40,203 bases of DNA, from the NCBI GenBank assembly GCA_016874175.1, contig VGUP01000005.1, positions 1-40,203 of the forward strand. The letters run 5' to 3'. Positions 4,099 to 35,808 of this stretch are shown piece by piece. Source of the stretch: Gammaproteobacteria bacterium. Lineage in GTDB: Bacteria > Pseudomonadota > Gammaproteobacteria > Steroidobacterales > Steroidobacteraceae. The notes under the pieces are model-generated. The model did no database searches and was not told where the DNA came from. It worked only from the letters and a program-made list of their open reading frames with translations. Position 1 is the first letter of the stretch. The number at the start of each line of letters is the position of its first letter. The position numbers and the translations under genes are program-made.

Positions 4099-4100
4099 GC

Positions 4101-4970: not shown

Positions 4971-5889
4971 AGCGCACCCGCGGATCGAGCCAGCCATAGA
5001 GCAGATCGGCGATCAGGTTGAGCGTCAGCGTCAAACTGCCGTAGACGACGATCATGCCCATGACGAGGGTGTAATCGCGATTGATGGCGCCCTGGACGAG
5101 GTAGCGGCCGCTGCCGGGCAAACCGAATACCGTCTCGACGACCAGCGAACCCGTGATGACGAAAGCCGTGGCCGGCCCGAGGTAACTGACGACCGGCAAC
5201 AGTGCAGGGCGCAGGGCATGACGCAGCACGACTTGCCGCTCGGGCAAACCCTTGGCGCGGGCCGTACGCACAAAATGCATTCGCAATACTTCGAGCAGAC
5301 TGCCGCGCGTCAAACGAGCGATGTAGGCAATCACCGGCAAAGCCAAGGTGATCACCGGCAATACCAAAAACTCGAGCGCATCATCCTCATAGCCTGCGAC
5401 CGGAAACCAGCGCAGATGCAGACCAAAAATGAGCGCAAACAACGGGCCGGTCACGAAGCCCGGCAGCGCAATGCCGAGCACTGCCACGCTCATGATGCCG
5501 TAGTCGGTCGGACTGTTCTGGCGCAGCGCCGCTAGCGTGCCTAGCGGAATGCCGATCAGCAATGCAAGCAGCACCGCCGAGAGCCCGAGCAGCAGGCTGA
5601 CGGGCAACCCCTGGGCAATCAGCTCGGTGACCGAGAAATCTTTGAACTTGAACGAGGGACCGAAGTCGCCACGGACGAGCCCCGCAAGATAACGCCCATA
5701 TTGCTCGACCAGCGGGCGATCGAGCCCGTAGGCCGCCTCTAGGTTGGCTTTGATTTCGGGGGGCAGCGCCTGCTCTTCGTCAAACGGGCCGCCGGGGGCG
5801 ATCCGAATGACGAAGAACGACAAGGTGATGATGATGAACAGCGTCGGGAAAACCCCGGCAATTCGCCGCAGCGCGTAGCGCAGCATCAT
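4963..5889 (-). CDS. Dipeptide-type ABC transporter permease (OppB/DppB-like)
   Basis: A 308-residue inner-membrane permease with the OppB/DppB N-terminus (MMLRYALRRIAGVFPTLFII), the GGPFDEEQALPPEI segment that follows the first helix, and the LPxxxYIARLTRGSLLEVL and EAA-like regions near the middle. Six membrane helices can be drawn. It is the first gene of the importer block; the preceding RedY/HapK-like gene ends 65 bases away. No good Shine-Dalgarno sequence is visible before the ATGATG start, and a short hexanucleotide repeat occupies part of that gap. In typical opp/dpp operons a binding-protein gene would stand here, but it is missing. Confidence 0.94.
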   Translation of the reverse strand: MMLRYALRRIAGVFPTLFIIITLSFFVIRIAPGGPFDEEQALPPEIKANLEAAYGLDRPLVEQYGRYLAGLVRGDFGPSFKFKDFSVTELIAQGLPVSLLLGLSAVLLALLIGIPLGTLAALRQNSPTDYGIMSVAVLGIALPGFVTGPLFALIFGLHLRWFPVAGYEDDALEFLVLPVITLALPVIAYIARLTRGSLLEVLRMHFVRTARAKGLPERQVVLRHALRPALLPVVSYLGPATAFVITGSLVVETVFGLPGSGRYLVQGAINRDYTLVMGMIVVYGSLTLTLNLIADLLYGWLDPRVRYD

Positions 5890-6309: not shown

Positions 6310-7902
6310 TTACAGACCAAGAGCGCCCGGGTTCATGCGACCCGCGGGGTCGACCATGCGCTTCACTTGCCGCAAGAAACCTGCCGCCGAGTCCGCGAGC
6401 CCTTGCTGATAAAAATAAAACTTGCCGAGCTGAAAACTGACTGCGCCCTGCTCCATGAAAGCCCGCGCAAGATCGACGCGCAGTGCCGCCACCGCCGCGG
6501 CAGCCGCAGGATTTGCCGGAAAGCTCTCGAGCTTGGCGAGATACGCGGCATTGAGGACCCGCTCATGAAACGGCAGCCGTGCATCAGGCCAATAAAGCAC
6601 AGGCTCGAGCAGCGTTCCTGCATTGCCGACGGTGCTGACCAGATAGCCCCGATCGATATCGTGTTTACGCATCGACTCGGCGTGCTGCTCGAAGACCGCC
6701 TCACAAACTTCATACATCTGTGAGGCGCGCGAGAACGGCACGGTGCCATGCACGGGAACCCAGCGCTCGCCGCCCGGTCCGAGCATGCTGTTGAGCTCGG
6801 CGAACGGGTTCGCGCGCATGACTTTCGGCACAGTGTTCTCGACCTCGGCGCCGGCGGCCGACATGATCCGGCGAACGATCGCCGCCTTCGCGTCGGCGTC
6901 GATGGCGTCGCGTCCATCGAGCGAGAGGTGCACCGAAAAGGTACCGTCTTCGAGAAAGTTACGCCCGGCCAGGACGACCTTGGCACCCTCCTTCAAGCCT
7001 TTGAGCACACCACCCGAATTGCTGACCACCTTGCCGAGTGCCTTGGCATCTTCGCGCAGACTCGCGCGCTTCATGCGCACGGCCTGCAAGCCCGGATCGA
7101 AACCGAACTGCTCGGACACCACCTCGGCTCGCGCCACATCGGCCATCGCTGAAAAAAGATCTTGGTGACGGCGAAACGAGAACGACAGGTAGCGCGACTC
7201 GGGCTGCGGACGGATCAGACGAAAAGTCGCTCTGGTCTTGATGCCGAGCGCGCCGCAATCGGAGAGAAACATGCCGAGGGTGTCGGGTCCCACCTGCCTG
7301 AAGAAGGGCTCGCCGTTGCGATTCGCGTGCGCCCCAAGATTAAGCACCGTGCCATCGACGAGGACCACATCGAGACCAATCACGCTCTCTGCGGCAGCGC
7401 CGTAACGCCCCGATCCCAAAAACATGCTGCCTTGTGAAAGCGCCCCGCCAATCGTCGAGCGCAAGCCCGACAGAGGCCCGTAATACGGGGTCCGCACGCC
7501 ATGGGGCGCCAGCGCGTCAAACAATTCTTTCCAGGTGGCGCCGCAGTCGACCGTCACGTAGCCATCTTCGGCATCGATGGTGACCACGCGATTCATCGCT
7601 TGCACATCGACCATGATCGAGTTCTCGAGTGTAGGCAGATAGCCGTCGGTGTATGACATGCCACCGCCGCGCGGCACGATCGGCAAACCCGACGGCGCGA
7701 TCGCCCGCAACGCCTCGGCGAGCTGCCGGGTAGTGGCCGGCCGAATCAGCGCTGCGGGCAATTTGCCGACGCGATAAACATCTTGCGAATAAAACTCGAG
7801 CTCCGTGCCTTCGGTGACCACGCGCTCGGCGCCAAGCACGCGACGAAGTTCGTTGAGCGCCCCTTCAACAGCACCTTGCATCAGATGTATAGCCTGCGAC
7901 AT
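6310..7902 (-). CDS. FAD-linked oxidase/dehydrogenase, VAO/PCMH type
   Basis: A 530-residue flavoenzyme. The N-terminal FAD-binding PCMH domain (about residues 45-230) has the pyrophosphate loop VPRGGGMSYTDGYLPT, the GATWKELFDAL segment and IGGALSQGS. A substrate-binding cap follows, and the C-terminus DPAGRMNPGALGL is typical of the vanillyl-alcohol oxidase/4-cresol dehydrogenase superfamily. These enzymes oxidise alcohols, phenols or hydroxyacids. I cannot assign a covalent FAD attachment residue. I chose the ATG at 7902, which matches the N-terminus of the paralogue at 17610; a longer frame to 8001 adds an Arg-rich, non-conserved stretch. It heads the minus-strand operon leading into the importer. 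Electron acceptor and substrate are unknown. Confidence 0.9.
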   Translation of the reverse strand: MSQAIHLMQGAVEGALNELRRVLGAERVVTEGTELEFYSQDVYRVGKLPAALIRPATTRQLAEALRAIAPSGLPIVPRGGGMSYTDGYLPTLENSIMVDVQAMNRVVTIDAEDGYVTVDCGATWKELFDALAPHGVRTPYYGPLSGLRSTIGGALSQGSMFLGSGRYGAAAESVIGLDVVLVDGTVLNLGAHANRNGEPFFRQVGPDTLGMFLSDCGALGIKTRATFRLIRPQPESRYLSFSFRRHQDLFSAMADVARAEVVSEQFGFDPGLQAVRMKRASLREDAKALGKVVSNSGGVLKGLKEGAKVVLAGRNFLEDGTFSVHLSLDGRDAIDADAKAAIVRRIMSAAGAEVENTVPKVMRANPFAELNSMLGPGGERWVPVHGTVPFSRASQMYEVCEAVFEQHAESMRKHDIDRGYLVSTVGNAGTLLEPVLYWPDARLPFHERVLNAAYLAKLESFPANPAAAAAVAALRVDLARAFMEQGAVSFQLGKFYFYQQGLADSAAGFLRQVKRMVDPAGRMNPGALGL

Positions 7903-8007
7903 GACTGCAACCCCGCAATAAACGGCACCAGACCGCGCACGACGCGGCCTCAAGGTCAACATTCTAGCCAGCGACGCGCGGGGCGGCCACCGAATCGACA
8001 AACAGGC

Positions 8008-17609: not shown

Positions 17610-19190
17610 ATGAACGCGGAAATGCACAGCCCATCGTCGCTCCTCGAGCGCTTGCAGTCCTTGCTCGGCCGCGAGCACGTATTGACCAACTCCACCGAGC
17701 GCAGTTTTTATTCGACGGATATTTACCGCGAGGGTGCCCTGCCCGTTGCCGTCGTACGCCCGACGAGCACGGCGGATGTGGCGCAGATCGTGCAACTGGC
17801 CGTGGCCGAGGGCGTTGCCGTGGTCCCGCGTGGGGGCGGCGCGTCCTACACCGACGGCTATACACCGACCGAGGCCGGCTCGATCAGCATCGACACTTCA
17901 CGCATGAATCGCATCCTCGAGATCAACGAGCGCGACATGTATTGTGTAGTCCAAGTCGGTGTGACTTGGGCAGCGCTCAACGAGGCATTGGCCGCCAAAG
18001 GTTTGCGCACCCCTTTCTTTGGCCCATTCTCGGGACTCGCGGCCACGGTCGGTGGCTCGCTGTCGCAGAACAGCGTGACTTGGGGCACCGGTGTATTTGG
18101 CGTCTCCGGCGAGAGCACCCTCGGTGTCGAAGTCGTCCTCGGCAACGGCGAGATCATCAAGACGGGCTCTTGGGGTGCTGCGAACTCGGTACCCTTCTTG
18201 CGCTCGTACGGCCCCGATCTCACTGGGCTGTTCATGGGCGACTGCGGCGCGCTCGGCGTCAAGACGACGGTCGCGCTGCGCCTGCTGCCGCGCAATACGC
18301 ACGTGTTGGGACTGTCGTTCGGCTTCAAAGATTTCGCGAGCATGTCGGCAGGCATGGAGGCTGCTGCGAAGCAGGGCCTCAATCTCACCAACTTTGGCCT
18401 CGACCCGGCGTTGCAGCAGGGACAACTCGGTAAAGCCGACGCCGCGACGGCCATGCAGTCGGCACTCGCGGTTTGGCAGACCTCGCGCGGCATCATCGAC
18501 GGCGCAAAACAATTGCTGAAGATGGCCTTCGCGGGCCGCGGCTTTCTGCAAGGTGCCGTGTTCTCGGCACATTGGGTGGTCGATGGCATCGACGACGTCT
18601 CTTGCCGGGCGGCCGTGGCCAAACTGCGCGCGGCACTGCAAGCGCACGGCGCCGAAGTGCCCGCCACCGTCCCGACCGTCGCGCATGCGATGCCGTTCAT
18701 GCCGCTCTATAACGTGCGCAGCCCCCTCGGCGAGCGCTGGGTGCCGGTGCACGGCATCCTACCCTTCTCGCGCGTTGCGGCCTTTCGCAGTGAACTCTCG
18801 AAGTACTACGAACAGCACGCGGCAGACATGAAACGCCTGAAAATCCGCTATGGCGCCATGTTCATGACCGTGGGCACCAACGGCTTTCTGTACGAGCCGG
18901 TGTTCTATTGGGAAGACGGCTACAACATCACGCAAGAGCGGCTGCTGCCCGAGGGCTATCAAGCCACCTTGCCGAAGTTTGCCGACAATCCGGAGGGTCG
19001 CACACTGGTCGACCAGATGAAGCACGGCATCGCCGACATCTTCCAGCGCCACGGTGCAAGCCACCTGCAGATCGGCAAGTTCTACCCCTATATGCGCGGC
19101 CGCGACCCGCACACCGCCAAGCTCATCCGCGAGCTCAAGCAGCTGGTCGACCCCCAGCGCCGCCTTAACCCGGGCGCGCTGGGCCTGTAG
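17610..19190 (+). CDS. FAD-linked oxidase/dehydrogenase, VAO/PCMH type (paralogue of 6310-7902)
   Basis: A 526-residue flavoenzyme collinear with the 6310-7902 product. It shares VPRGGGASYTDGYTPT, the VTWAALNEALAAKGLRTPF region, VGGSLSQNS, GERWVPVHGILPFSR, LQIGKFYPYMRGRDP and the terminal RLNPGALGL. The N-terminal half binds FAD (PCMH domain) and the C-terminal half is the substrate cap. It follows the IclR gene by 15 bases and precedes etfB and etfA by 73 bases. This suggests that its electrons could go to ETF, as in known FAD-linked dehydrogenase-ETF pairs such as the lactate dehydrogenase of LctBCD. It may instead use oxygen or a cytochrome. Substrate unknown. Confidence 0.91.
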   Translation: MNAEMHSPSSLLERLQSLLGREHVLTNSTERSFYSTDIYREGALPVAVVRPTSTADVAQIVQLAVAEGVAVVPRGGGASYTDGYTPTEAGSISIDTSRMNRILEINERDMYCVVQVGVTWAALNEALAAKGLRTPFFGPFSGLAATVGGSLSQNSVTWGTGVFGVSGESTLGVEVVLGNGEIIKTGSWGAANSVPFLRSYGPDLTGLFMGDCGALGVKTTVALRLLPRNTHVLGLSFGFKDFASMSAGMEAAAKQGLNLTNFGLDPALQQGQLGKADAATAMQSALAVWQTSRGIIDGAKQLLKMAFAGRGFLQGAVFSAHWVVDGIDDVSCRAAVAKLRAALQAHGAEVPATVPTVAHAMPFMPLYNVRSPLGERWVPVHGILPFSRVAAFRSELSKYYEQHAADMKRLKIRYGAMFMTVGTNGFLYEPVFYWEDGYNITQERLLPEGYQATLPKFADNPEGRTLVDQMKHGIADIFQRHGASHLQIGKFYPYMRGRDPHTAKLIRELKQLVDPQRRLNPGALGL

Positions 19191-24249: not shown

Positions 24250-25794
24250 TCAGCCGTAGGGCCGATGCAGGTATTGCCCCATGGGCTTGCCGACCGGCTT
24301 GCCATTGTCATAGATCAGTCGTCCACGCAGATAAGTGCTGGTCACCGTGGCCGACATCTCCATGCCTTCGAACACCGAATACCCTTGGTCGGATTCGGAG
24401 GTCTTGTTGCCGGCAACAAAACTCTTGTTGGGGTCGACCAAGACGATGTCGGCATCGAAACCCGGTGCGATATCACCCTTACCCTTGAGTCCGTAGCGTC
24501 GGGCGGCAGTCCAAGAGGTCAGTTCAGCGATGCGGTTGTACGACAAACCCCGCGGCTTGCCCTCGGTAATCAGCGCCGAGAGCATGAACTCGGTGCCGCC
24601 AAAACCGGACTTCGCCATGAAAATGTTCTTCTTGTCTTTCTTGCCGAGCTTCATTTCGGCGCGGCAGCAAGCGTGATCGGAGCAAACCCAATCGAGCTCA
24701 CGATCGATCAGTGCCTCCCAAAGAAATTTGACGTCGGCGCGCGAGCGGATCGGCGGATTGACCTTGGCGAGATTGCCGACCTTGGCGTCGTAGTCGAGAC
24801 AAAGGTGCGCAATGGTCACTTCGCGACGGAAATCGACATGTGGGAACGCCTTTTTCATTTTCATTGCCGCCTCGACCGCCTTACGCGAAGTGAGATGCAG
24901 CAGATTGATATTGGGGCAGTTCGTCTCGTGTGCGAGATATGAAGCGATCGTGATCGCGAGTCCCTCCGAGTGCGGCGGTCGGGCCGCGCTATAGGCCCGC
25001 AAGCCCGAGAGCGGCAGGCAGTCGATGCACTCGGGATCGTGGGTTTCGCCCGTGAGATAGGTGTCGAGGTCGGTGACCTTCGCCCCGCCCTCGACCATGC
25101 GCGTGTAGGCGCTCAGGAGGTCGGCGAGTTCGCAGTGCAGGCTGACCGAGATGGAATCTTTGATCTTGGGGCTGCGCAACATGGCGCGGTGTACGCCACG
25201 CATGACGAATTCAAAGTGCGCGATGTCGTACTTCTCGTCTTCACCGATCATCAAAAATTCGCGCTGCGAGTTCGAGGCGCCGTGCAGGCCATAACCGCCA
25301 TAGAACATGAAAATCTTGAACGAGGTCACACCGAATTTGTTGATCAGCATGTCGATCTCGCCGATGTGTGTGCGATCGAGAGGCGCGAGGTGATAAGCGT
25401 AATCGACCCAGAAGTTGTCCTTCGAGGCCGCCAGCACCTCGGGATAGACCTCGGCGTAGGGACCGCCGCGCTCCATGTAATAGCCGCCGGTACGCATGTA
25501 ATTGAGGCTCGAGGTCACGCCGCCCTGCGCCGCCGCCAAGCTCTCGCTGCGAGCGTCCGCGGACAGCGGCCCGTAAATGCCAGTGTGCATATGCGGGTCG
25601 ACCAAGCCCGGAAACGCCAGTTTGTTTTTGCCATCGACGACTTCACGCGCCTCAGCGGCGGCGATGCCCTTGGCCAGCTTCACCACCTTGCCGTTGGCGA
25701 CGGCAATGTCGAGTTTTTCGACGGTGGTTTTGCGTGGACGCGCCACGCGCACGTTCTTGATCAGCAGGTCGTATTTCTTGGGCTTCTCGGCCAT
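24250..25794 (-). CDS. Dihydropyrimidinase/dihydroorotase-like amidohydrolase
   Basis: A 514-residue cyclic amidohydrolase. The metal-binding HxH is His68 and His70 in DPHMHTG. Lys160 in TSFKIFMFYGGYG is the likely carbamylated lysine bridging two metals. SLHCELADLL and LLHLTSRKAVEAA hold the next His residues, and CSDHACC carries the catalytic Asp. The final GLKGKGDIAPGFDADIVLVD is typical. Enzymes of this class open cyclic amides (hydantoins, dihydropyrimidines, dihydroorotate). The precise ring substrate is unknown. The gap upstream (25795-25906) has a possible -10 at 25824-25829, suggesting its own promoter. Confidence 0.92.
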   Translation of the reverse strand: MAEKPKKYDLLIKNVRVARPRKTTVEKLDIAVANGKVVKLAKGIAAAEAREVVDGKNKLAFPGLVDPHMHTGIYGPLSADARSESLAAAQGGVTSSLNYMRTGGYYMERGGPYAEVYPEVLAASKDNFWVDYAYHLAPLDRTHIGEIDMLINKFGVTSFKIFMFYGGYGLHGASNSQREFLMIGEDEKYDIAHFEFVMRGVHRAMLRSPKIKDSISVSLHCELADLLSAYTRMVEGGAKVTDLDTYLTGETHDPECIDCLPLSGLRAYSAARPPHSEGLAITIASYLAHETNCPNINLLHLTSRKAVEAAMKMKKAFPHVDFRREVTIAHLCLDYDAKVGNLAKVNPPIRSRADVKFLWEALIDRELDWVCSDHACCRAEMKLGKKDKKNIFMAKSGFGGTEFMLSALITEGKPRGLSYNRIAELTSWTAARRYGLKGKGDIAPGFDADIVLVDPNKSFVAGNKTSESDQGYSVFEGMEMSATVTSTYLRGRLIYDNGKPVGKPMGQYLHRPYG

Positions 25795-25906: not shown

Positions 25907-26848
25907 TTAGACCAAATCCCGCGCCACGCGAAAACCGAAATAACTGTAGCGCGCATCGACGGAATCGCGACCGCGAAAGGTCAGTCGGTTGCGACTTGGA
26001 CGAGTCATCCAGCCACCACCGCGCACCGTCCATTTGGCGCAATCCGCCCCCCCTGCGACCGCGCTGCCATTGCGCGGTGTGGTGTCGTAGGTTTCTTGAT
26101 AACAATCGGCCGTCCACTCCCAAACGTTGCCGATCATGTCGTACAAGCCAAAAGCGTTCGGCTTGAAGCGCGCGACTGGGGCGAGCTCGGCATAGCCATC
26201 TTCGCAGTCGGCGTAGCCCCAACCGAAATCAAGCTGTCGCCGCGCGCTGCGATCGTAGGCATTGGCGTAGCCACAGCCGAGATCGGCGTTGTTACCCCAA
26301 GAATAAATCCCGCGGCTCCCGGCACGCGCTGCATATTCCCACTCGGCCTCACTCGGCAAGCGGTAGGTCTTGCCCGCAATGCGCGAGAGCCACGCCGCAT
26401 AGGCACGCGCATCGGCGTGACTCACGCAGACCACAGGCAGCTCTTCGCTGAGCGGTGTAACGAAACCGGGCGTCTGCCATCCGGCATCGCGGCGATCATC
26501 CCAGCCGACCCGCTCGCCTTTGACGATCTTGTCGGCTTGCACGCGACAGCCCGCAGGCACTTGATATCCCGTCGCCGCGACGAACTTGCGAAACTCGGCC
26601 ACGGTGACCTCGGTAGACGCGAGCGCAAAAGCGCGTATTTTGACTTCGTGAATCGGCCCCTCGGAGCGCCCCGCTTCACCATCGTCCGAGCCCATCATGA
26701 AACGACCGCGCGGTACGACCACGAGTTCGGGGCACTCGGCACAGTCGCGAATAGTGTTCGGGGCAGCAGCCGCGAGCTGAGTCGGCAGCAGTACGGCAAA
26801 AACTGCCAAACAAAGAATTCGGGGAAGGCTGGCCATCTGCGGGAGCAC
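25907..26848 (-). CDS. Exported SUMF1/formylglycine-generating-enzyme-fold protein
   Basis: A 313-residue protein with an N-terminal signal peptide (hydrophobic ILCLAVFAVLLPTQL, then AAAAP) and an FGE-sulfatase domain: VVVPRGRFMMGS, TEVTVAEFRKFV, YRLPSEAEWEYAARAGSR, DMIGNVWEWTADCY and WTVRGGGWMTRPSRNRLT. In true formylglycine-generating enzymes two copper-binding cysteines follow the RGGSW-type motif. Here that stretch (RGGGWMTRPSRNRLTFRGRD) has none, so canonical activity is doubtful. The fold is also used for ergothioneine-type sulfoxide synthases and diverse unknown functions. It lies 23 bases after the GntR gene and may be the end of the UbiD operon. Confidence 0.87.
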   Translation of the reverse strand: MLPQMASLPRILCLAVFAVLLPTQLAAAAPNTIRDCAECPELVVVPRGRFMMGSDDGEAGRSEGPIHEVKIRAFALASTEVTVAEFRKFVAATGYQVPAGCRVQADKIVKGERVGWDDRRDAGWQTPGFVTPLSEELPVVCVSHADARAYAAWLSRIAGKTYRLPSEAEWEYAARAGSRGIYSWGNNADLGCGYANAYDRSARRQLDFGWGYADCEDGYAELAPVARFKPNAFGLYDMIGNVWEWTADCYQETYDTTPRNGSAVAGGADCAKWTVRGGGWMTRPSRNRLTFRGRDSVDARYSYFGFRVARDLV

Positions 26849-26871
26849 CTCTGATTGAAAACCGCGTGGAT

Positions 26872-27645
26872 TCAGCTGCGAGCTTCGAGCTGCATGTGGT
26901 ATTGGTAGGCGTCGGCACGATACAGCGCCACCACCCGCTCGACCGGCCGGTCGTGGCTGTCGAACACCGTGCGCGCCAACCGCAAGAGCGGCGCGCCGAC
27001 CTCGATCTCGAGTGCCTTGGCTGCCTCCACACCCGCGAGCGTCGCGCCAATATATTGATCGGCTCTGGCGAGCGTGATCCCCGCCGTACCCAACAACTCG
27101 AACATCGGTTGTCGCGCCATTTCTGCGGCGTTGACCCGACGCGCGACATCAAGCGGCACGAAAGTAGTGATGAGCCCGAGCGGCGCACCCTGCACCGTTC
27201 GCACGTGGGTAGCCCGTTGCACCAGCTCGCCGTCCTCCAGGAGCAGCGCTGCGCGAGTCTCCTCGTCGGGCGAAATCTCGATGATGCGCAAATCCACCAC
27301 CTCGGTGGCTGCAGCAAAACCCGCGACCCGACTGCGCACCTGATTGAGGTCGGCCGAGGCGGCAGTACGCGAGGCGGATAACTGGACGAAGGTACCCCTG
27401 CCCTGCTGCCGCACCAGCCAGCCTTCTCGACAAAGATTGTCGATGGCCTTGCGCACCGTGATCCGCGATACCTCGAAGCTCTCGCAGAGCTGCGGCTCGG
27501 TGGGGATGCGATCGCCCGCCTTGTAGGTGCCGTCGCGTACCCAGCTACGCAGCGTGACATACACTTGGTGATAGCGCGGCGAGGCAATCGAACGCAGTGC
27601 GCCGCTCGCACCCTCATTTTTTCTTTGCGCTGCTTTTTGCGCCAT
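26872..27645 (-). CDS. GntR family transcriptional regulator, HutC/UTRA subfamily
   Basis: A 257-residue regulator. The N-terminal winged helix (about residues 23-88) has YVTLRSWVRDGTYKAGDRIP, FEVSRITVRKAIDNLCREGW and QQGRGTFV. The C-terminal UTRA ligand domain includes LITTFVPLDVARRV and ADQYIGATLAGVEAAKALE. HutC/FarR-like regulators usually repress a neighbouring operon and release DNA when they bind a metabolite. Its ATG overlaps the SDR stop by one base (TGATG), so it is co-translated with the UbiD-oxygenase-SDR genes and is the likely switch for the divergent TonB/UbiD promoters. Confidence 0.93.
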   Translation of the reverse strand: MAQKAAQRKNEGASGALRSIASPRYHQVYVTLRSWVRDGTYKAGDRIPTEPQLCESFEVSRITVRKAIDNLCREGWLVRQQGRGTFVQLSASRTAASADLNQVRSRVAGFAAATEVVDLRIIEISPDEETRAALLLEDGELVQRATHVRTVQGAPLGLITTFVPLDVARRVNAAEMARQPMFELLGTAGITLARADQYIGATLAGVEAAKALEIEVGAPLLRLARTVFDSHDRPVERVVALYRADAYQYHMQLEARS

Positions 27646-28373
27646 CAGTCGAGCACCAATCCACCCGACACATTCATCACCGTGCCGGTGACGAAAGCCG
27701 CCGACGGGCTCGTGAGGTAATCGATGGCATGCGCGACATGCGCAGGCTCGCCGATCGCACCGAGCGGCACGGCGTTTTTGAGGCGATCAATGGTTTCGGA
27801 CGGAAAGCGTCCGGTCACCATCGGCGTGGCGATCGGTCCGGGCGCGAGGCAGTTCACGCGTATGCCCTCGGCGGCCCACTCTTTGGCGAGATACCGAGTC
27901 AGATTGAGGATGCCGGCTTTGGCCACCGCATAGGCCGGACCCGAGAGCGCACTACCCCCGTTGAGTCCATTGGTCGAAGACGTCAGCGTCAACGTACCGC
28001 GGCTCGCCGCGAGGGCCGCGTGGGTCGCCTTGGCGATCAAAAAAGCCGAGGTGAGATTGGTGTCGAGGACATGCTGCCAATCCTCGCGACTCACGCTGTC
28101 TAGCGGCCCACTGCCGGCAATGCCCGCCAAATGCACCACGTGATCGAGCCTGCCGAGCTCGCCAAGGACGCGCGCAATGACGGCGATGATCGCCGACTCG
28201 TCGGTGACATCGAGGCTGGCCACGGTGAGCGGCGCGCCACAGGGGATCTCGGCCAGCGCGCGATCGGTAGCCACCACGCGCATGCCGCGTTCGCGCAGCC
28301 TCGCCACCGTCGCGCGGCCGAGTCCGCCCGCAGCCCCGGTAATCAGCGCGACCGGCGTGCCTGGCTTGGCCAC
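27645..28373 (-). CDS. SDR family NAD(P)-dependent oxidoreductase
   Basis: A 242-residue classical SDR with TGAAGGLG (residues 13-20), VASLDVTD, a HLAGIAG segment in the place of NNAG, the catalytic Ser in LTLTSSTNGLNGG and Tyr-x3-Lys in YAVAKAG. The C-terminal LAPGPIATPMV and FVTGTVMNVSGGL are typical. The start is GTG, six bases after the stop of the oxygenase candidate. In this operon it probably oxidises or reduces a hydroxyl or keto group next to the UbiD step. Confidence 0.94.
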   Translation of the reverse strand: MAKPGTPVALITGAAGGLGRATVARLRERGMRVVATDRALAEIPCGAPLTVASLDVTDESAIIAVIARVLGELGRLDHVVHLAGIAGSGPLDSVSREDWQHVLDTNLTSAFLIAKATHAALAASRGTLTLTSSTNGLNGGSALSGPAYAVAKAGILNLTRYLAKEWAAEGIRVNCLAPGPIATPMVTGRFPSETIDRLKNAVPLGAIGEPAHVAHAIDYLTSPSAAFVTGTVMNVSGGLVLD

Positions 28374-28379
28374 GGTCGA

Positions 28380-29096
28380 TTAGGCCGCCTTGCGGGTGAC
28401 CAACTGGGCGTGGATCCCATCGAGCATCGAGAAACGCATCTCGGCCGAGGCGCGCACTGCGGCGATCGCGAGCTCTTGCAAAGCCGGCGTGGTCGCATAC
28501 CGATCGGTGAGCTCGAGCCCAACATGCGCGTGCTCAGTGTCACCCTCGATGTGAACGATAAAAAACTCGAGGTCGTCATCACTGAAGCCCATCTTGTGCA
28601 TGGCGGCCACATACTTTGGGTAGAGCGTCGGCAATTGACCCTCGAGCGCAACCATGATGCCCGCGCAGGACTCGCCGAGCGGCCGAATCGTCGAGAGTTC
28701 CCAGAGCCACGAGCGCATAGCGCGAGTTGTTGGCAGCACTTCGCCGTTTTGCTCAGCGCGCAAGATCCGCTCGTCACTCACGCCGCAAGCGCGCGCGAAT
28801 TTACGCAGCAAATCGGGGTGTCGCTTTCCCGGACAGGCCGGCATTTCTTCGCCTAACAGATTTTCGAGCAGGTGCTGTCGGGCATCGAGATCCGGCAAGC
28901 GCGCGTACAACGCTGCGAACTGCTGCGGAATCTGATCGATGTAATAGAAGTGTTGGATTGCCCATTCACCAAGTTGCGCTCGCGACAACTCGCCCGCCGC
29001 CCAGGCGCGACTGAACGGATGACCGCCACCATGCTTAGGCTGACGTGCCCCCTCTAGAGCGCCAAAGAAATCTTTTTGGTTTAACAATACACTCAT
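28380..29096 (-). CDS. Heme-oxygenase-like di-metal oxidase candidate (PqqC/CADD-like)
   Basis: A 238-residue all-helical protein of the PqqC/TenA/CADD superfamily. The N-terminal helices hold HPFSRAW and WAIQHFYYIDQIP, as in PqqC. Residues matching the di-iron ligand set of heme-oxygenase-like oxidases are visible: Glu83 or Glu84, His93, Glu152, then His182, Asp186 and His189 spaced as HxxxDxxH. This spacing matches the CADD and UndA group. Such enzymes do oxidative decarboxylation, N-oxygenation or self-sacrificing chemistry. The ATG at 29096 has an AAGGAG site 8 bases upstream. It lies 31 bases after the UbiD gene. PqqC itself is unlikely because no pqq genes are present. Confidence 0.85.
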   Translation of the reverse strand: MSVLLNQKDFFGALEGARQPKHGGGHPFSRAWAAGELSRAQLGEWAIQHFYYIDQIPQQFAALYARLPDLDARQHLLENLLGEEMPACPGKRHPDLLRKFARACGVSDERILRAEQNGEVLPTTRAMRSWLWELSTIRPLGESCAGIMVALEGQLPTLYPKYVAAMHKMGFSDDDLEFFIVHIEGDTEHAHVGLELTDRYATTPALQELAIAAVRASAEMRFSMLDGIHAQLVTRKAA

Positions 29097-29127
29097 AAGT
29101 TCACACTCCTTATCCTTCAAAGATCGT

Positions 29128-30543
29128 TCAAAACTTTGGCCAAGCGGTATCCGTCGCCTTACTCAACCACGCCTTCGCTCGCCGCAAGGACTCAGTAGGG
29201 ACGGTCGCGACCGGCGGATAGGCCTCGGCTCCCGTGCCGCGCGCTGCCGGCGGTATGGTCGCATCGATTCCCATCTTGGTGACCGTTGAGACGCCCTCGG
29301 GCAGCGACGGGTCGAGACTCGAACCCGACAGACCCGCAACACTGATCGTGTCGCGATCCCACCGGACCCTTGTCGCCAGCGCCCAAAGCATGGTGTCGTT
29401 ATCGAAAATATCGATGTCCGTATCGACCGCAATGACGGTTTTGACGCGTCGATAAGCAAGAGCCGCCATCAACGCATCGCGGGCCTCGCCCGGTCCTGGC
29501 TCGCTCAGTTGCAGATAAGCGTGAAAGCGGCGGCCTTCGGTCGGTACATGCACGTTGACGATCGAGGGCGCCACCGCCTTGATGAGCTCGAACAACTTGC
29601 CCTCCATCGCCATGTTGTCGGGCACCAGCATGTCGGTGAGGCCAGAGCCGTAATCGTGATAGATCGCATCGCATCGTCGCGTGATACAACGGACATCGAC
29701 GAGAGGTGCTTTCACCTGCCCACCGAGGTAACCGGTGTATTCACCGAAGGGGCCATCGTCGACGCGCTCGCCGGGCGGCACGAAACCTTCGATCACGATC
29801 TCGGCATCGGCAGGCACCATTATTTTGTCGCCATGCAGCACTGAGGGGACAAGCCGCAACGGTTTGCCGAGCACACCTCCCGCCGCTGCCCAGTGACTTT
29901 CGGGATATTTGAGCTTCGCCTGCGTACCAAGGAGGACCGCCGGATGGTGACCGATCCAGAAAGCGACCGGCGCCGACTCGCCGCGCGCATGAAATTTGCG
30001 CAGGTTGCGTGCGTTGTGGCTCGCGGGATAAGGGAGCCAAGTCATGCGCTGCGGGCCCTGCACCCAGCAACGCTGGATGGCGGTGTTGTCAACACCGGAA
30101 TCCGGGTCATAGGTCGTCGCATGGGCTGCCGTCAGGTACGGGCCAGGCTCAAGTTCGTGCTGCGTCAGCACCGGCAAGTCGTGCAGGCTGGCGGCGGAGC
30201 CCTGCAGCACTATCTCCTGTACGGGGGCGTTGGCTCGGGCCACATGCTCGGGTTCGATCGAGGCCCTTGTGCGGGTCGCGAACCACTGAGCCGTTTGCCG
30301 ATGATCGGGAATCCCCAGCGCCTTCGCGGTCAACTCCCGACTCGCGGTCAAATTGAGGACCACCGGGATCGCCGTCGGCTGACCGTCGAGGCTCGGGACC
30401 TGGCGTGCAACCACCACGGGATAGCGACGCTGTCCATCGAGCACATGCTGCAGCGCGGTCAAATCATGGCGAGGCGCCACCGGGTCAGGGAGCTCCCAGA
30501 CCACTGCGGCGTGCTCGGCAAGGAATGACCGAAGGTCGCTCAT
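29128..30543 (-). CDS. UbiD family (prFMN-dependent) decarboxylase
   Basis: A 471-residue UbiD-fold protein. Visible hallmarks are HDLPVLTQHELEPGPY, the RCWVQGPQRMTW and HHPAVLLG region, APADAE-like VPADAEIVIEGFVPPGE, FGEYTGYLGGQ (the conserved Glu-containing EYTGY segment) and the C-terminal AVDTDIDIFDNDTMLWALAT. UbiD enzymes reversibly decarboxylate aromatic or alpha,beta-unsaturated acids using prenylated FMN made by UbiX. No ubiX gene is in the window. I chose the ATG at 30543; a GTG at 30588 would add 15 residues and swallow the divergent promoter. The substrate is unknown. Confidence 0.93.
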   Translation of the reverse strand: MSDLRSFLAEHAAVVWELPDPVAPRHDLTALQHVLDGQRRYPVVVARQVPSLDGQPTAIPVVLNLTASRELTAKALGIPDHRQTAQWFATRTRASIEPEHVARANAPVQEIVLQGSAASLHDLPVLTQHELEPGPYLTAAHATTYDPDSGVDNTAIQRCWVQGPQRMTWLPYPASHNARNLRKFHARGESAPVAFWIGHHPAVLLGTQAKLKYPESHWAAAGGVLGKPLRLVPSVLHGDKIMVPADAEIVIEGFVPPGERVDDGPFGEYTGYLGGQVKAPLVDVRCITRRCDAIYHDYGSGLTDMLVPDNMAMEGKLFELIKAVAPSIVNVHVPTEGRRFHAYLQLSEPGPGEARDALMAALAYRRVKTVIAVDTDIDIFDNDTMLWALATRVRWDRDTISVAGLSGSSLDPSLPEGVSTVTKMGIDATIPPAARGTGAEAYPPVATVPTESLRRAKAWLSKATDTAWPKF

Positions 30544-30575
30544 GAACTGGATCCAGACGTCGTAATATTGGCGCT

Positions 30576-30588
30576 GTGCATTGTGCAC
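30576..30588. promoter_or_regulatory. Inverted repeat GTGCA-TTG-TGCAC, candidate GntR operator
   Basis: A perfect 5-3-5 palindrome 33 bases upstream of the UbiD ATG, in the divergent gap with the TonB receptor gene. Its location suits a repressor site for the GntR/UTRA protein encoded in the same operon. It does not match a specific known consensus. Confidence 0.38.
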
Positions 30589-30597
30589 GAAAATTCG

Positions 30598-30624
30598 TTA
30601 TAGTGATAGGATGATTGCCTATAA
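30598..30624. promoter_or_regulatory. AT-rich nested inverted repeat at the divergent UbiD/TonB promoters
   Basis: TTATAG (30598-30603) and CTATAA (30619-30624) are inverted with a 15-base spacer, and ATAGG (30606-30610) and CCTAT (30618-30622) are nested inside with a 7-base spacer. TATAAA at 30620-30625 could be the -10 of the TonB receptor gene; its -35 is poor, so an activator may be needed. It is the only clearly AT-rich segment in this gap. Confidence 0.4.
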
Positions 30625-30677
30625 ACTGGTGCGCGACACAGCAGCGAAAAATCGACCAACACTTCGGAGGACGCCGA

Positions 30678-33143
30678 ATGAGAAAGACGAGACTTAGCTA
30701 TCTCGCCCTGAGCATCGCGATTGCGGTCGCGAGCGCACTTTCAAGCCAAGCCGCCGCCCAACAAGGCGCCGATGCGGCCGATGATCTCGCCCTCGAAGAA
30801 ATTGTGGTGACGGCACGTAAGCGCGAGGAATCGCTGCAAGACGTGCCGCTGACGGTGACCGCTGTCACGGCCACGCAAATCGCCGAACTCGGCATCAAAG
30901 ACTCGCGCGATCTTGCTCTCTTTACCCCGGGTTTCTCGAATGTGGCCTCATTTGGACGCAGTCCACTGGAGCGTCCAACTATTCGCGGCCAGTCGAATAT
31001 CCTCGGCGCGGCCAACGCGTCATATTTCGTTGATGGAGTGTACCTCTCGGGCAGTGCCTCAAACACCGAGACCGCCAACCTTGAGCGCATCGAAGTTATT
31101 AAGGGCCCGCAGGCAGCCCTCTTCGGTCGCGCCACTTTCGCGGGAGCCATCAACTACGTAACCCGCAAGCCCTCCGAAGAGTTCACCGGACAAGTTACCG
31201 GTACCGTCGGTCAGTTCGATCAAAGAGACATTACCGCCTTCATGAGTGGCCCGATCATCGATGGCAAACTCAATTTTTATCTTTCTGGCACCCGCACGGA
31301 AATTGGCGGTTTCTACAATAACCCGCTTGATTCACGTGACGATCTTGGCGCCGAGCAAACCGATGCCATCACCGGCAAGCTAAGATGGCGCCCTGCCGAG
31401 GGCATCGACATCAGTGCCCTTGTGACCTACGCAGAAGACAAGGACGGCCCCCCCGCCCTGGCTCTGCAGGGTCGTGAATTTAATAACTTCAATCTGCTAG
31501 ATCCCGTAGCTCGCCCACGCTCTCGAGGCTACTACCGAGGTGTTGTTCAACCGACCGAGAAGTTGGCTATCGCCCAATTTACGAACCTTTTCCCGGACCC
31601 AGGCTCCCGCCGCGATCGAGTGCGTGGAGCGCTAACGGCAACACTCTTGTCCGACAGCGGATACGAACTTGTCTCCACTACAGGGTACAGCGAGGAAAAT
31701 TATGGGGTTCAGATCGACGTGTCATACGCCGGTTATAACCCGGGTTTTCTTGCGCCGCCACCGCCGGCAGCGACGCCCTTAGTGGCGCAGTTCTCCTCGT
31801 CGGGTAGTTTCCAGCGCATTCAGGGCGAAGAGCGCCGAGACCTTTCGCAAGAATTGCGTCTCAGCTCACCGGTGGATCGCGGCTTCCGCTGGACAGTGGG
31901 AGCGTATTACTTTGCCGCGGCGGATGATGCCGTTCGTGACGATAAATTATACAGCACCGGTGCGTTGATTGTGCCAAACGGAGCAGCGACACTGACTTAT
32001 CGAGATATTAAGAACACTGCCACCTTCGGTAGCCTCGAGTACGACATCACCGACAAATGGACGGTTACCGCCGAGGCGCGGCAGGCTAAAGAAGAGATTG
32101 AGCAACAGTCCGAGGCGTTCGCCGCCAATGCGATAGCACGAACCCCCGGACGCACTTTTAATGGAACGTTTGAGAGTTACACGCCGCGTTTCACGGTTCG
32201 GTACAAGCCCAATGAGGATCTCTCGCTGTTCGCCAATTTCGCCCAGGGCACCAAACCAGGTGGCTTTAATAGCGCAGGCGTTTTGCCGCTGCTTGAAGCG
32301 CTAGGTAAGTCGGCTGCGGTTAAGGAAGAGGACTCGGAGGTTATCGAACTTGGTGCCAAGTTCAACTGGGGGCAGCGCTTCTCTGGATCGGTCACTGGCT
32401 TTGATATCAAGCTCACCAATCAGCAGCTGACACAAAATATTGTTGCCGTTGTTAACGGGGTGGCGATCGCGAACTCGTTCATTGAAAACGTGGGCAAAAC
32501 GAGCTCCAAGGGCATTGAGCTTGAGTTCAACGCAATCGTCACAGACAGTCTGCGCATCAGCCTGGGCGGCGCCCTCATCGACGCAACGTTTGATGAATAC
32601 ATCAATTCGGATCAAGCGGATCTGTACAGTAACCGACCCGCCACCGCGTTCACGGCGGTCTCTGCAGCTAACCCACGCGGCTGTGGCACTCTTGGCGCAT
32701 CGGTTGCCGCAAATGCTGCAGCCTGTGCTGCATTGCGCGCGCAGGACAACATCGAGTTTGGTAATGTCGCCGGCAATCGCACGCCGCGGTCACCAAAGTG
32801 GAATGGGTACATCACTTCGCGATACACCCGCCCGCTCGACGATGACATGAGGCTGGTGGTCGGTGTCGATCTCACGGCCGAAGGCTCTAAGTTCGCGCAG
32901 CTGCATAACCTTGCGGAGACGGGAGCCCGAACCTACGTTAACGCGCGCGCCGCGGTCGAGACTGACACCTGGAACGTGACACTCTGGGGTCGTAACATGA
33001 ATGATGACGACACCGCGCTCGATATTCTTCGTTATGTCGACGGTCGTGGGCTTCCAGGAGCTGCTTGGGTGGCCACGCGTGGCTTTGTGATCTCGCTTCC
33101 AAAGCCACGACAGTTCGGTCTGACGGCCACGTATAAGTTCTAA
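30678..33143 (+). CDS. TonB-dependent outer-membrane receptor
   Basis: An 821-residue outer-membrane receptor. A signal peptide (LSYLALSIAIAVASALSSQA, then AAAQQ) precedes the TonB-box-like EEIVVTARKREESLQDVPL and the plug domain with RDLALFTPGF, RPTIRGQ and FVDGVYLSG. The rest is a 22-strand-type barrel ending in Lys-Phe. It takes up large or scarce solutes at the expense of proton motive force through TonB-ExbB-ExbD, which are not in this window. The start is the ATG with GGAGG upstream. It is divergent from the UbiD operon. The ligand is unknown. Its codon use looks more AT-rich than its neighbours, for instance more ATT, CTT and TTA. Confidence 0.95.
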   Translation: MRKTRLSYLALSIAIAVASALSSQAAAQQGADAADDLALEEIVVTARKREESLQDVPLTVTAVTATQIAELGIKDSRDLALFTPGFSNVASFGRSPLERPTIRGQSNILGAANASYFVDGVYLSGSASNTETANLERIEVIKGPQAALFGRATFAGAINYVTRKPSEEFTGQVTGTVGQFDQRDITAFMSGPIIDGKLNFYLSGTRTEIGGFYNNPLDSRDDLGAEQTDAITGKLRWRPAEGIDISALVTYAEDKDGPPALALQGREFNNFNLLDPVARPRSRGYYRGVVQPTEKLAIAQFTNLFPDPGSRRDRVRGALTATLLSDSGYELVSTTGYSEENYGVQIDVSYAGYNPGFLAPPPPAATPLVAQFSSSGSFQRIQGEERRDLSQELRLSSPVDRGFRWTVGAYYFAAADDAVRDDKLYSTGALIVPNGAATLTYRDIKNTATFGSLEYDITDKWTVTAEARQAKEEIEQQSEAFAANAIARTPGRTFNGTFESYTPRFTVRYKPNEDLSLFANFAQGTKPGGFNSAGVLPLLEALGKSAAVKEEDSEVIELGAKFNWGQRFSGSVTGFDIKLTNQQLTQNIVAVVNGVAIANSFIENVGKTSSKGIELEFNAIVTDSLRISLGGALIDATFDEYINSDQADLYSNRPATAFTAVSAANPRGCGTLGASVAANAAACAALRAQDNIEFGNVAGNRTPRSPKWNGYITSRYTRPLDDDMRLVVGVDLTAEGSKFAQLHNLAETGARTYVNARAAVETDTWNVTLWGRNMNDDDTALDILRYVDGRGLPGAAWVATRGFVISLPKPRQFGLTATYKF

Positions 33144-33205
33144 AACTTGCTGTTACCTTTCGCTAGTTGCTGGTCAGTTGATTGGTTCGTAGCGTAAGTC
33201 ACGAC

Positions 33206-34306
33206 ATGCTGGCGCAGCCGACCGCGGAAGAGGCGGCGCGCCAGCAGTTCGTGGTGGCCTTCAAGCAAGCGCTCAACAAGGGTCTGCGCAGCAGCCAAGC
33301 GGCGCTGTTCGACAAAGTCGTGGCACCGGCTTGGCGCGAGCAGCACGGTCGGGCGCCCGAAACGCGCGCGGAGATTCGCGCGGCGATGCAGGCCGACCCG
33401 GCGTATCGCAGTTGGTCCTCGCTGGCGCGTGCCTCGCAAGAGCAAATGTGGATCGCGGTTGGCGACAGCGTCTTCAGAGAAGCCCCACGACTCGCGGCGA
33501 CGGCGGCCGCGCTCGATGCCGCACCGACCCGCCGCGGCTCGCTGCATCTCGATCTCGAATTCGTACCACCGCGCGGCGTCACTGCCGTCGACATTCACCT
33601 GCAGACTGGCGGCTACGCCCTCGATCTCGGTGATGGCGATTGCTCCGCGGGCGCGCTCTACGAATCGGGCGGCAACCTTTACGCTTTTGGTCAAGGGATC
33701 AGCCGCAACGACAGCAAGGCAGCGCACGTCCAGCGATTCATTGCCGAACGCTTTCCGCACCTCAAACCCCAAAGAATTCTCGACATGGGCTGCTCGGCAG
33801 GTTCGGCGAGCGTGCCGTATGCCGAAGCCTTCCCCGATGCCGAGGTCCACGCCATCGACGTCGGCAGCGGCATGCTGCGCTATGCGCATGCCCGCGCCGA
33901 GGCGCTCGGTGCCGCCGTGCATTTCCATCAGATGGATGTCGCCGCAACCCGGTTTGCCGACCAATCCTTCGATCTCGTCGTCTCGCATAACTTGATGCAC
34001 GAGATCTCCGCGCCCACGCGGCGCGGCATGCTGCGCGAAAGCCTTCGCCTATTGCGACCCGGCGGTGTCTGCGTGCATCAGGATATTCCGCTCCGCTATC
34101 AAGGCATGGCGGAATTCCGCAAGTTCGAGATGTCCTGGGACACCCTCAACAATAACGAGCCCTACTGGGAGGTCTACGCCAACGCCGACCTCGAGCCCGA
34201 ATTGTTGACCGCAGGGTTCGCCAAAGATTGCATTCATGTCGGCAGCCTGCCCGCCCGCGAAGGCACGCTGCCCTGGTTTGTCGCCTGTGCCTGGAGACCA
34301 TTGTGA
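33206..34306 (+). CDS. Class I SAM-dependent methyltransferase
   Basis: A 366-residue protein. About 190 N-terminal residues form a helical domain of unknown type (AEEAARQQFVVAFKQALN). The C-terminal half is a Rossmann-fold methyltransferase with motif I ILDMGCSAGSASV, AIDVGSGML, QMDVAATRFADQSFDLVVSH (motif II region) and ESLRLLRPGG. It would methylate an O, N or C atom of a small molecule. The ATG at 33206 has a weak ribosome site; a TTG at 33182 is an alternative. It follows the TonB receptor gene by 62 bases and overlaps the aldehyde dehydrogenase by GTGA. Confidence 0.88.
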   Translation: MLAQPTAEEAARQQFVVAFKQALNKGLRSSQAALFDKVVAPAWREQHGRAPETRAEIRAAMQADPAYRSWSSLARASQEQMWIAVGDSVFREAPRLAATAAALDAAPTRRGSLHLDLEFVPPRGVTAVDIHLQTGGYALDLGDGDCSAGALYESGGNLYAFGQGISRNDSKAAHVQRFIAERFPHLKPQRILDMGCSAGSASVPYAEAFPDAEVHAIDVGSGMLRYAHARAEALGAAVHFHQMDVAATRFADQSFDLVVSHNLMHEISAPTRRGMLRESLRLLRPGGVCVHQDIPLRYQGMAEFRKFEMSWDTLNNNEPYWEVYANADLEPELLTAGFAKDCIHVGSLPAREGTLPWFVACAWRPL

Positions 34307-35808
34307 CGGTAAGGATTTCCCGTAGTTTCCCCATCAACGAACACGTCACAAGCTTCATCGACGGCGCACCGGTCACCAGCAAAGCGAAGGGTCACGATAT
34401 TGAGGTCGTCAATCCAACCACCGAACAAGTCATCAGTCGCTTGCGCGAAGCGGACGCCGCAGAGGTCGATGCTGCCGTCACCGCGGCGCGGCGCGCCTTC
34501 GATTCCGGTCGCTGGCCGCGCATGGATATCACCGAGCGCAAGGACATCCTCTACTCGATTCGTGATCACCTGCGGAAAAACGCCGAAGAACTCGCTTACC
34601 TCGAGTGTCTGAACACCGGCCTGCCCCTGCACAGCGTCGCCGTGCATGTGCAACGCATGGCGCGCAACTTCGAATTCTTTGCCGAAGTCGCGAGCAACGT
34701 CCACGGCGAAACCTACACCCAGACCGCCGGCTATCTGACCTACGTCACTCGCGAGCCCAAAGGGGTTGCCGGCTGCATTGCGCCGTGGAATGCCCCGCTC
34801 GCGCTTGCTTCGATGCGCGTCGCAACTTGCATTCCCTGGGGCAATACCTGCGTGCTCAAGCCCTCGGAATACACGCCACTCTCGATGCGGCGCATGGTCG
34901 AGATCTTTCACGAAGCCGGTCTGCCGCCGGGCGTGGTCAATCTGGTCAACGGACGCGGCGCCGTGACCGGCGATGCACTGGTGAATCACCCGGGCATCGA
35001 CATGGTCGGCTTCACTGGCGGTACCTCGACGGGTCGTGCGATTGCCGCCACCGCGGGGCGCAACCTGAAGCCGGTCGCGCTGGAACTCGGTGGTAAATCC
35101 GCGAACATCATTTTTGATACGGCCGATGTCGAACGCGCGCTCGATGGCGCGCTCGCCGGCATCTTCGGCAACAACGGCCAACAATGCCTCGCGGGCTCGC
35201 GAATCCTGGTGCAGCGCGGGATCGCCGATGCTCTGATCGAACGCTTCGTCGCTCGCGCCAAAAAAATCCGACTCGGCGACCCTCTGTTGCCGACCACCGA
35301 AATCGGTCCACTGGCCTTTCGTCAACACATGGAGCGCGTACTGTCTTTCGTCGATATCGCCAAGGCCGATGGCGCCACCTTGCTCACGGGCGGCAAGCGC
35401 TCGGCAGTGCACGACAAGGGCTGGTTTATCGAACCGACGGCGGTGATGGCGCCCACCAACGATGCACGAGTCTGCCAGGAAGAAATCTTTGGCCCGTTCG
35501 CCACTTTTCTCACCTTCGATACGCTGGATGAAGCCATTCGCATTGCCAACGATTCGAAGTTCGGACTCGTCAATTATGTGTGGTCGGAAGATCTCAATAC
35601 CGTGATGCGCTGCTCGCGCGACATTCGCGCCGGCACAGTGTGGGTCAACACGCCGATGATGCGCGAACTGCGCGCGCCTTTCGGGGGTTACAAGGAATCG
35701 GGCATCGGTCGCGATGGCCCGCAGGCTAGCCTCGAGTTTTTCACCGAACTGAAGGCGACTATCATCCCGATCGACCCGGTGAAGATGCACCGCTACGGCG
35801 CCTCGTGA
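34303..35808 (+). CDS. Aldehyde dehydrogenase family protein (HpaE-like)
   Basis: A 501-residue NAD(P)-dependent aldehyde dehydrogenase with Asn163 in PWNA, Lys186 in LKPSEYTP, Glu261 in LELGGKSAN and the catalytic Cys295 in NGQQCLAGSR. The C-terminal region contains EEIFGPFATFLTFD and GGYKESGIGRDGP. The pattern is close to semialdehyde dehydrogenases of aromatic-ring cleavage such as HpaE, but this is only a family resemblance. The start is a GTG that forms a GTGA overlap with the methyltransferase. Its last 47 bases overlap the 3' end of the convergent VOC gene. Confidence 0.94.
   Translation: MTVRISRSFPINEHVTSFIDGAPVTSKAKGHDIEVVNPTTEQVISRLREADAAEVDAAVTAARRAFDSGRWPRMDITERKDILYSIRDHLRKNAEELAYLECLNTGLPLHSVAVHVQRMARNFEFFAEVASNVHGETYTQTAGYLTYVTREPKGVAGCIAPWNAPLALASMRVATCIPWGNTCVLKPSEYTPLSMRRMVEIFHEAGLPPGVVNLVNGRGAVTGDALVNHPGIDMVGFTGGTSTGRAIAATAGRNLKPVALELGGKSANIIFDTADVERALDGALAGIFGNNGQQCLAGSRILVQRGIADALIERFVARAKKIRLGDPLLPTTEIGPLAFRQHMERVLSFVDIAKADGATLLTGGKRSAVHDKGWFIEPTAVMAPTNDARVCQEEIFGPFATFLTFDTLDEAIRIANDSKFGLVNYVWSEDLNTVMRCSRDIRAGTVWVNTPMMRELRAPFGGYKESGIGRDGPQASLEFFTELKATIIPIDPVKMHRYGAS

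Follow-up and report, generated by a model that had tools for sequence, protein, structure and literature searches.

What could a UbiD-family decarboxylase and a haem-oxygenase-like dimetal oxidase (HDO) be doing side by side in one bacterial locus? The two genes adjoin on contig VGUP01000005.1 (assembly GCA_016874175.1) of a gammaproteobacterium of the family Steroidobacteraceae. The window, by which we mean the whole 40,203-nucleotide stretch analysed, is one contig of an incomplete genome (2.56 Mb in 254 contigs). A preliminary description had read the locus as a dedicated uptake and degradation module under one GntR switch, with a TonB-dependent receptor as one of its parts. We arrive at a smaller unit: with a probability of roughly 0.55, UbiD, HDO and a short-chain dehydrogenase (SDR2) form the core of a catabolic module that depends on O2 and has spread between lineages. 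Each of these enzyme families is known. The coupling of UbiD to an HDO looks new within our searches of open-licence PubMed Central articles: among those listed, on topics that included UbiD neighbourhoods and catabolic HDOs, none described such a pairing.

UbiD and HDO occur in the same genomes

Independent scatter of the UbiD and oxidase genes among related genomes had been named beforehand as the outcome that would speak against a shared pathway; what we found is the opposite. Searching 98 related genomes for the HDO gave matches in 39 at 0.001, and 27 of these reached 235 bits, the threshold set for an orthologue; the remaining 12, with weaker matches only, were left out of the counts. A UbiD orthologue (match at 1e-60) was present in exactly the same 27 genomes. 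In some genomes scores cover only part of the first-look candidates, and both absences and copy numbers are to be read as limits. Among the matches scored in a sample of the order (356 genomes), an HDO orthologue with 63–100% identity was found in 27 genomes and a UbiD of at least 508 bits in 26, all of them inside the HDO set, with G841 as the exception. No genome outside the 26 reached the 508-bit level among the matches scored; 13 had a UbiD-family match of 140–191 bits, which was left out of the UbiD counts together with a second copy of this kind in G944. The corresponding Fisher values, which ignore kinship, are 1e-24 for the 98 relatives and 1e-38 for the order sample. Within the window's own genus, four of 24 genomes lack both genes. 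Samples of the class and phylum yielded no close HDO: 7/369 and 9/398 genomes matched at 1e-10, the window's own included, and the best other match scored 170 bits.

The two genes are adjacent in 18 of the 26 genomes of the order that carry both and unlinked in the other eight, all of which belong to g36 of family f12; in the one-contig genome G856 of this group they lie about 1.27 Mb apart. Patristic distances of UbiD and HDO correlate at 0.80 over 29 taxa, a value from which shared ancestry was not removed. In trees without support values, UbiD and HDO of G944 (family f15) each fall among the g14 sequences, and our reading is that the two genes may have been transferred jointly between lineages.

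The conserved core and its variable neighbours

By tblastn, we compared the genes of the window with 21 related loci and with stretches from further genomes. Neighbours were counted at one locus per genome in 32 genomes, as matches above set identities that were centred at most 10 kb from HDO; same-genome locus pairs (L036/L077, L033/L109, L038/L076, L028/L085 and L041/L078) thus count once here, while element and residue counts are given per row. SDR2 was found near HDO in all 32 genomes, UbiD in 26, GntR and aldehyde dehydrogenase (ALDH) in 23 each, prx in 21 and curA in 20, followed by the amidohydrolase hyd (19), the methyltransferase (16), etfB (13), the FGE-like protein (11), VOC (11) and nitrilase (7). 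Some absences of neighbouring genes arise because contigs end: L021, L022, L037, L078, L111 and others end early, and in G019 the HDO is cut by a contig end and UbiD lies on a different contig.

HDO and SDR2 occur together in five families, in three of which ubiD lies beside HDO, and this association is more than chance. Its surroundings differ between families. Family f3 (G061) has the trio ubiD-HDO-SDR2 without gntR, ALDH or methyltransferase. In family f12 (g36) the order is SDR1-HDO-SDR2; UbiD lies elsewhere, in three genomes beside two DUF1838 genes, and one locus of this family (L071) has a hydantoinase/carbamoylase-family amidase nearby. Family f2 (G841) has HDO and SDR2 near an ABC-transporter operon, all four parts of which are 53–56% identical to their counterparts at window positions 2117–5889. 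A conserved core of ubiD-HDO-SDR, usually with gntR and facing a divergent (methyltransferase-)ALDH arm, is well supported.

The earlier view of UbiD, oxidase, SDR, GntR and TonB receptor as one module thus stands for the first three and, in most genomes, for GntR, and is not supported for the receptor. A receptor like that of the window (at least 45% identical) is present at the locus in five of 32 genomes, which makes it an optional part and not a fixed one. Four more loci (L070, L071, L108 and L114) have a TonB-like match of 21–34% identity within about 10 kb, so a receptor of some kind in the neighbourhood may yet be of importance. Among the matches scored, the receptor reaches 1e-100 in 17 of the 98 relatives. 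Several of these matches lie on contigs other than the HDO contig, and in G016 a receptor occurs in the absence of both UbiD and HDO. We regard the receptor, the methyltransferase, the FGE-like protein and the DUF1838 proteins as lineage-specific additions.

An operator-like element tracks the regulator

The GntR gene is linked to HDO in 23 of the 32 genomes. Near the ubiD start we delimited a 26-bp element and scored it with a position matrix, each locus with its own site left out. In each of the 24 loci, from 22 genomes, where gntR is linked to ubiD, the site upstream of ubiD scores 21.9–39.6, and the next-best sites there reach 11.3 at most. Where ubiD has no linked gntR, the best score is 1.4–13.0 (10 rows, nine genomes), including a weak site of 11.8 at the expected position in L108. 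At L086 (G019), which is split from gntR by a contig end, the element scores 32.4. The test is lenient because the matrix retains near relatives, and because L077 and L109 are second loci from genomes that it includes already. This co-variation of element and gntR supports, at the level of sequence, the earlier proposal of a single GntR switch, which would act through one element situated between ubiD and the gene facing it. With GntR and UTRA domains and a linked conserved element, the protein has the make-up of a regulator with its own operator, to which binding is predicted.

The preliminary description had also noted palindromes in the divergent gap. An inverted repeat, TGTCAT-N6-ATGACA, does coincide with the element in three relatives (L030, L033 and L034), and the window's copy is not a clean palindrome. 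The pattern drawn from the element matches the window once against 0.05 expected, and four of 100 shuffles also contain a match; since the pattern was drawn to fit the site, this is not independent evidence. Strong sites also occur at L111 in G841 (26.9), about 700 bases upstream of its ABC operon, and upstream of a second HDO in G011 (24.7; HDO at L066 9434–10182, G011:C37, 65% identity).

Residues of the two enzymes

Pfam and PDB sequence matches place HDO in the haem-oxygenase-like family, for which a seven-helix fold is expected. Its best solved relatives are 4-aminobenzoate synthases (E 2.8e-22). The CADD model is its top NCBIfam match at 100.4 bits, below the cut-off of 200, and the PqqC equivalog gives 60.1 bits, below the cut-off of 240. 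Residues E91, H101, E160, H190, D194 and H197 are fixed in 35/35 rows and align with E81, H88, E142, H174, D178 and H181 of CADD, which we take to be its metal ligands. HDO thus appears to keep all six ligands, and a dimetal site is predicted; an excerpt of PMC13108848 gives 3-His/3-carboxylate as the ligand set of the superfamily. HDO shares family and aligned ligand positions with the p-aminobenzoate synthases CADD and NePabS, but lacks both of the residues that CADD sacrifices, Tyr27 and Lys152 according to part of PMC11965152. The former aligns with Ser37, a serine in 35/35 rows, and the latter with Tyr170, invariant in 17 rows. With both replaced, p-aminobenzoate is disfavoured as a substrate.

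More distant HDO clusters on large replicons of Cupriavidus and Caballeronia are alike in that HDO (35–37% identical, full-length in six records) lies beside an aldehyde dehydrogenase, with a GntR gene. In contrast to the window, their 20–25 kb stretches contain no UbiD or SDR2 match, but 2Fe-2S proteins and an HbpS-like protein, and in L058–L060 an ornithine cyclodeaminase.

UbiD exceeds the Pfam cut-offs for PF01977, PF20696 and PF20695 and falls just below that of TIGR00148 (242.8 bits against 244.85). N168, R173, H191, E267 and E283 are fixed in 34/34 rows; N168, H191 and E267 are taken to be catalytic positions. Position 278, that of the first Glu in the published catalytic motif, is Asp in 34/34 rows. 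As far as an excerpt of PMC5818171 goes, the network of the family is R-Xn-E-X4-(E/D) and Glu-to-Asp variants of Fdc1 stay active. The genome has its own UbiX, 140.5 bits and above the model's cut-off, though the contig stops within this copy.

The best solved relative of UbiD is the furan-2,5-dicarboxylate decarboxylase HmfF (6h6v, 6h6x), the match to 6h6v covering residues 72–451. It differs from HmfF in having Asp for the first catalytic Glu and at two positions that are presumably substrate contacts: His296 of HmfF aligns with Met320 (Met or Asn in 34/34 rows) and Arg304 with Met328 (Met in 33/34 rows, one Gln). Because these residues differ in all 34 rows, furan-dicarboxylate is disfavoured as the substrate. 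The hydroxyarylic acid decarboxylase VdcC is the second NCBIfam match of UbiD, but its 208.1 bits are far under the cut-off of 650.

Proposed pathway and alternatives

The reading that we favour runs as follows. UbiD, with prenylated FMN from the genome's own UbiX, would take CO2 off an aromatic, heteroaromatic or alpha,beta-unsaturated acid. HDO would activate O2 at its predicted dimetal site and oxidise the UbiD product or a nearby intermediate, after which SDR2 and the divergent ALDH would oxidise the resulting alcohol or aldehyde further. HDO and SDR2 probably act in sequence, as they are the tightest pair. The GntR/UTRA protein would control both arms through the one element, presumably as a repressor released by an effector. 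That the pathway degrades and does not build its compound we infer from the type of neighbour: ALDH, an amidohydrolase, a nitrilase-type enzyme and an ABC solute-binding protein point to catabolism. Pyrrole- or pyridine-type acids, hydantoins and cyclic imides are candidate substrates. A more specific version, in which HDO cleaves a C-C bond or opens the ring after prenylated-FMN-dependent decarboxylation and SDR and ALDH follow, as an aerobic route for a (hetero)aromatic or unsaturated acid, is tentative, and we consider it doubtful.

Several observations weigh against the favoured reading. The co-occurrence counts take no account of kinship, and the 98 relatives and the order sample share genomes. 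UbiD and HDO are unlinked in the f12 genomes. G841 has an HDO orthologue (63%) and, among the matches scored, no UbiD of this subfamily, and the second HDO of G011 has a methyltransferase and a Rieske oxygenase as neighbours, with no UbiD adjoining; because of these two, HDO can evidently work without UbiD. The dimetal site is a prediction from sequence; the AlphaFold2 model, built from 17 close orthologues, is too poor for a fold check (mean predicted local distance difference test score, pLDDT, 44.2). Nor is there a redox partner beside HDO in the window.

The same genes could instead form a biosynthetic module, with UbiD, HDO, SDR, methyltransferase and ALDH making a small metabolite that the TonB receptor, where present, re-imports. 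Methyltransferase and receptor do occur in some genomes, but these are variable parts, and the neighbouring amidohydrolases, ALDH and ABC transport genes speak against such a pathway; we think it unlikely. Another role for HDO would be that of a maturase, which oxidises prenylated FMN and so activates this UbiD subfamily. Co-occurrence of the two genes even where they are unlinked would fit, as would the dependence of some UbiDs on helper proteins like LpdD and PhdC, as far as an excerpt of the source tells. However, the closest partner of HDO is SDR2 (32/32) and not UbiD, the f12 HDO is flanked by two SDR genes, and G841 has HDO without this UbiD, so that a maturase seems very unlikely.

That chance neighbours, or a loose catabolic island without a shared pathway, account for the locus is suggested by the many catabolic-type genes in the 40-kb window and by the varying flanks, and is highly improbable given the co-occurrence, the gene order shared between families and the way in which element and regulator go together. 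Least credible of all is a self-sacrificing p-aminobenzoate synthase of the CADD type beside unrelated genes: the best solved relatives and the top NCBIfam model speak for it, but the score is about half the cut-off and both sacrificial residues are replaced.

Should the more specific route, with C-C cleavage or ring opening by HDO, be confirmed, no HDO family known to us would have been devoted to catabolism before this one. PMC13108848 puts the number of HDOs with a validated function at around twelve, most of them acting on fatty acids or amino acids. Where an HDO accompanies the same UbiD subfamily across an order of bacteria, oxygen chemistry that has yet to be characterised is indicated. 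The regulator and its element offer a direct way toward the inducing acid, and a UbiD with the network Asp, this HDO and SDR2 together make a search signature for the module in other genomes.

Gene layout of the locus

Gene content and strands agree with the preliminary description, from the FGE-like gene to UbiD on the minus strand and from the TonB receptor to ALDH on the plus strand (Table 1). Some genes are probably shorter than their open frames: among the nearest relatives, in-frame stops fall close to the beginning of the frame for ubiD and HDO in L021 and L022, and for ALDH in L023, L025, L031 and L032. This suggests the trimmed starts of Table 1, with GTG as the first codon of ALDH. 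The trimmed ubiD start and the first ATG of the receptor frame (30678) together reproduce the 134-base gap reported between the divergent arms (30544–30677). With these starts, 31 bases separate ubiD from HDO and six separate HDO from SDR2; SDR2 and gntR overlap by one base, and 23 bases lie between gntR and the FGE-like gene. The minus-strand genes are likely to be co-transcribed.

Table 1. Features of the locus, with window coordinates.
Feature	Position	Strand	Evidence
UbiD-family decarboxylase (ubiD)	29128..30543, frame to 30588	-	Pfam UbiD, UbiD_C, UbiD_N; 6h6v E 6e-65
HDO, CADD/PqqC-related	28380..29096, frame to 29120	-	Pfam Haem_oxygenas_2, TENA_THI-4
SDR2, short-chain dehydrogenase	27645..28373	-	Pfam adh_short_C2
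GntR/UTRA regulator, HutC-like	26872..27645	-	Pfam GntR, UTRA; NCBIfam HutC best, 113.7 bits (cut-off 220)
Operator-like element, divergent promoter (predicted)	30593..30618	-	Position-matrix score; covaries with gntR
ALDH	34309..35808, frame opens 34228	+	Pfam Aldedh
Methyltransferase with N-terminal extension (optional)	33182..34306	+	Pfam Methyltransf_25 at residues 199-295
TonB-dependent receptor (optional)	30678..33143, frame opens 30615	+	Pfam Plug, TonB_dep_Rec_b-barrel
FGE/PvdO-like protein (optional)	25907..26848	-	Pfam FGE-sulfatase; PvdO 198.4 bits (cut-off 500)
Hydantoinase/allantoinase-like amidohydrolase (frequent neighbour)	24250..25794	-	Pfam Amidohydro_1/3; NCBIfam allantoinase best, 207.6 bits (cut-off 357.85)

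Further observations on the window and its relatives

Elsewhere in the window, positions 1284–5889 hold an oppBCDF-type operon, akin to the operon in the vicinity of the HDO in G841, and next to it an SDR gene whose product shares 58% identity with the SDR that adjoins the HDO of f12. Two FAD_binding_4 proteins are encoded at 6310–8001 and 17610–19190; the latter is followed by two genes that we take to be etfBA, and is itself kept near HDO in several relatives.

Two families with members beside UbiD or HDO in some genomes are large, and the surveys of both in the window's genome and its relatives do not name a substrate. DUF1838 (PF08894) is expanded: the genome of the window has at least 19 matches and G011 at least 28. 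The domain occurs in at least 45 of the 98 relatives and, among the matches scored, in none of 14 control genomes. Several of the related genomes appear to come from lake or reservoir samples. The methyltransferase with the N-terminal extension likewise belongs to a large family, with at least nine matches at 1e-20 in the window's genome and up to at least 20 in relatives. One of the copies in the window's genome (L102) adjoins an arylmalonate-decarboxylase-family gene.

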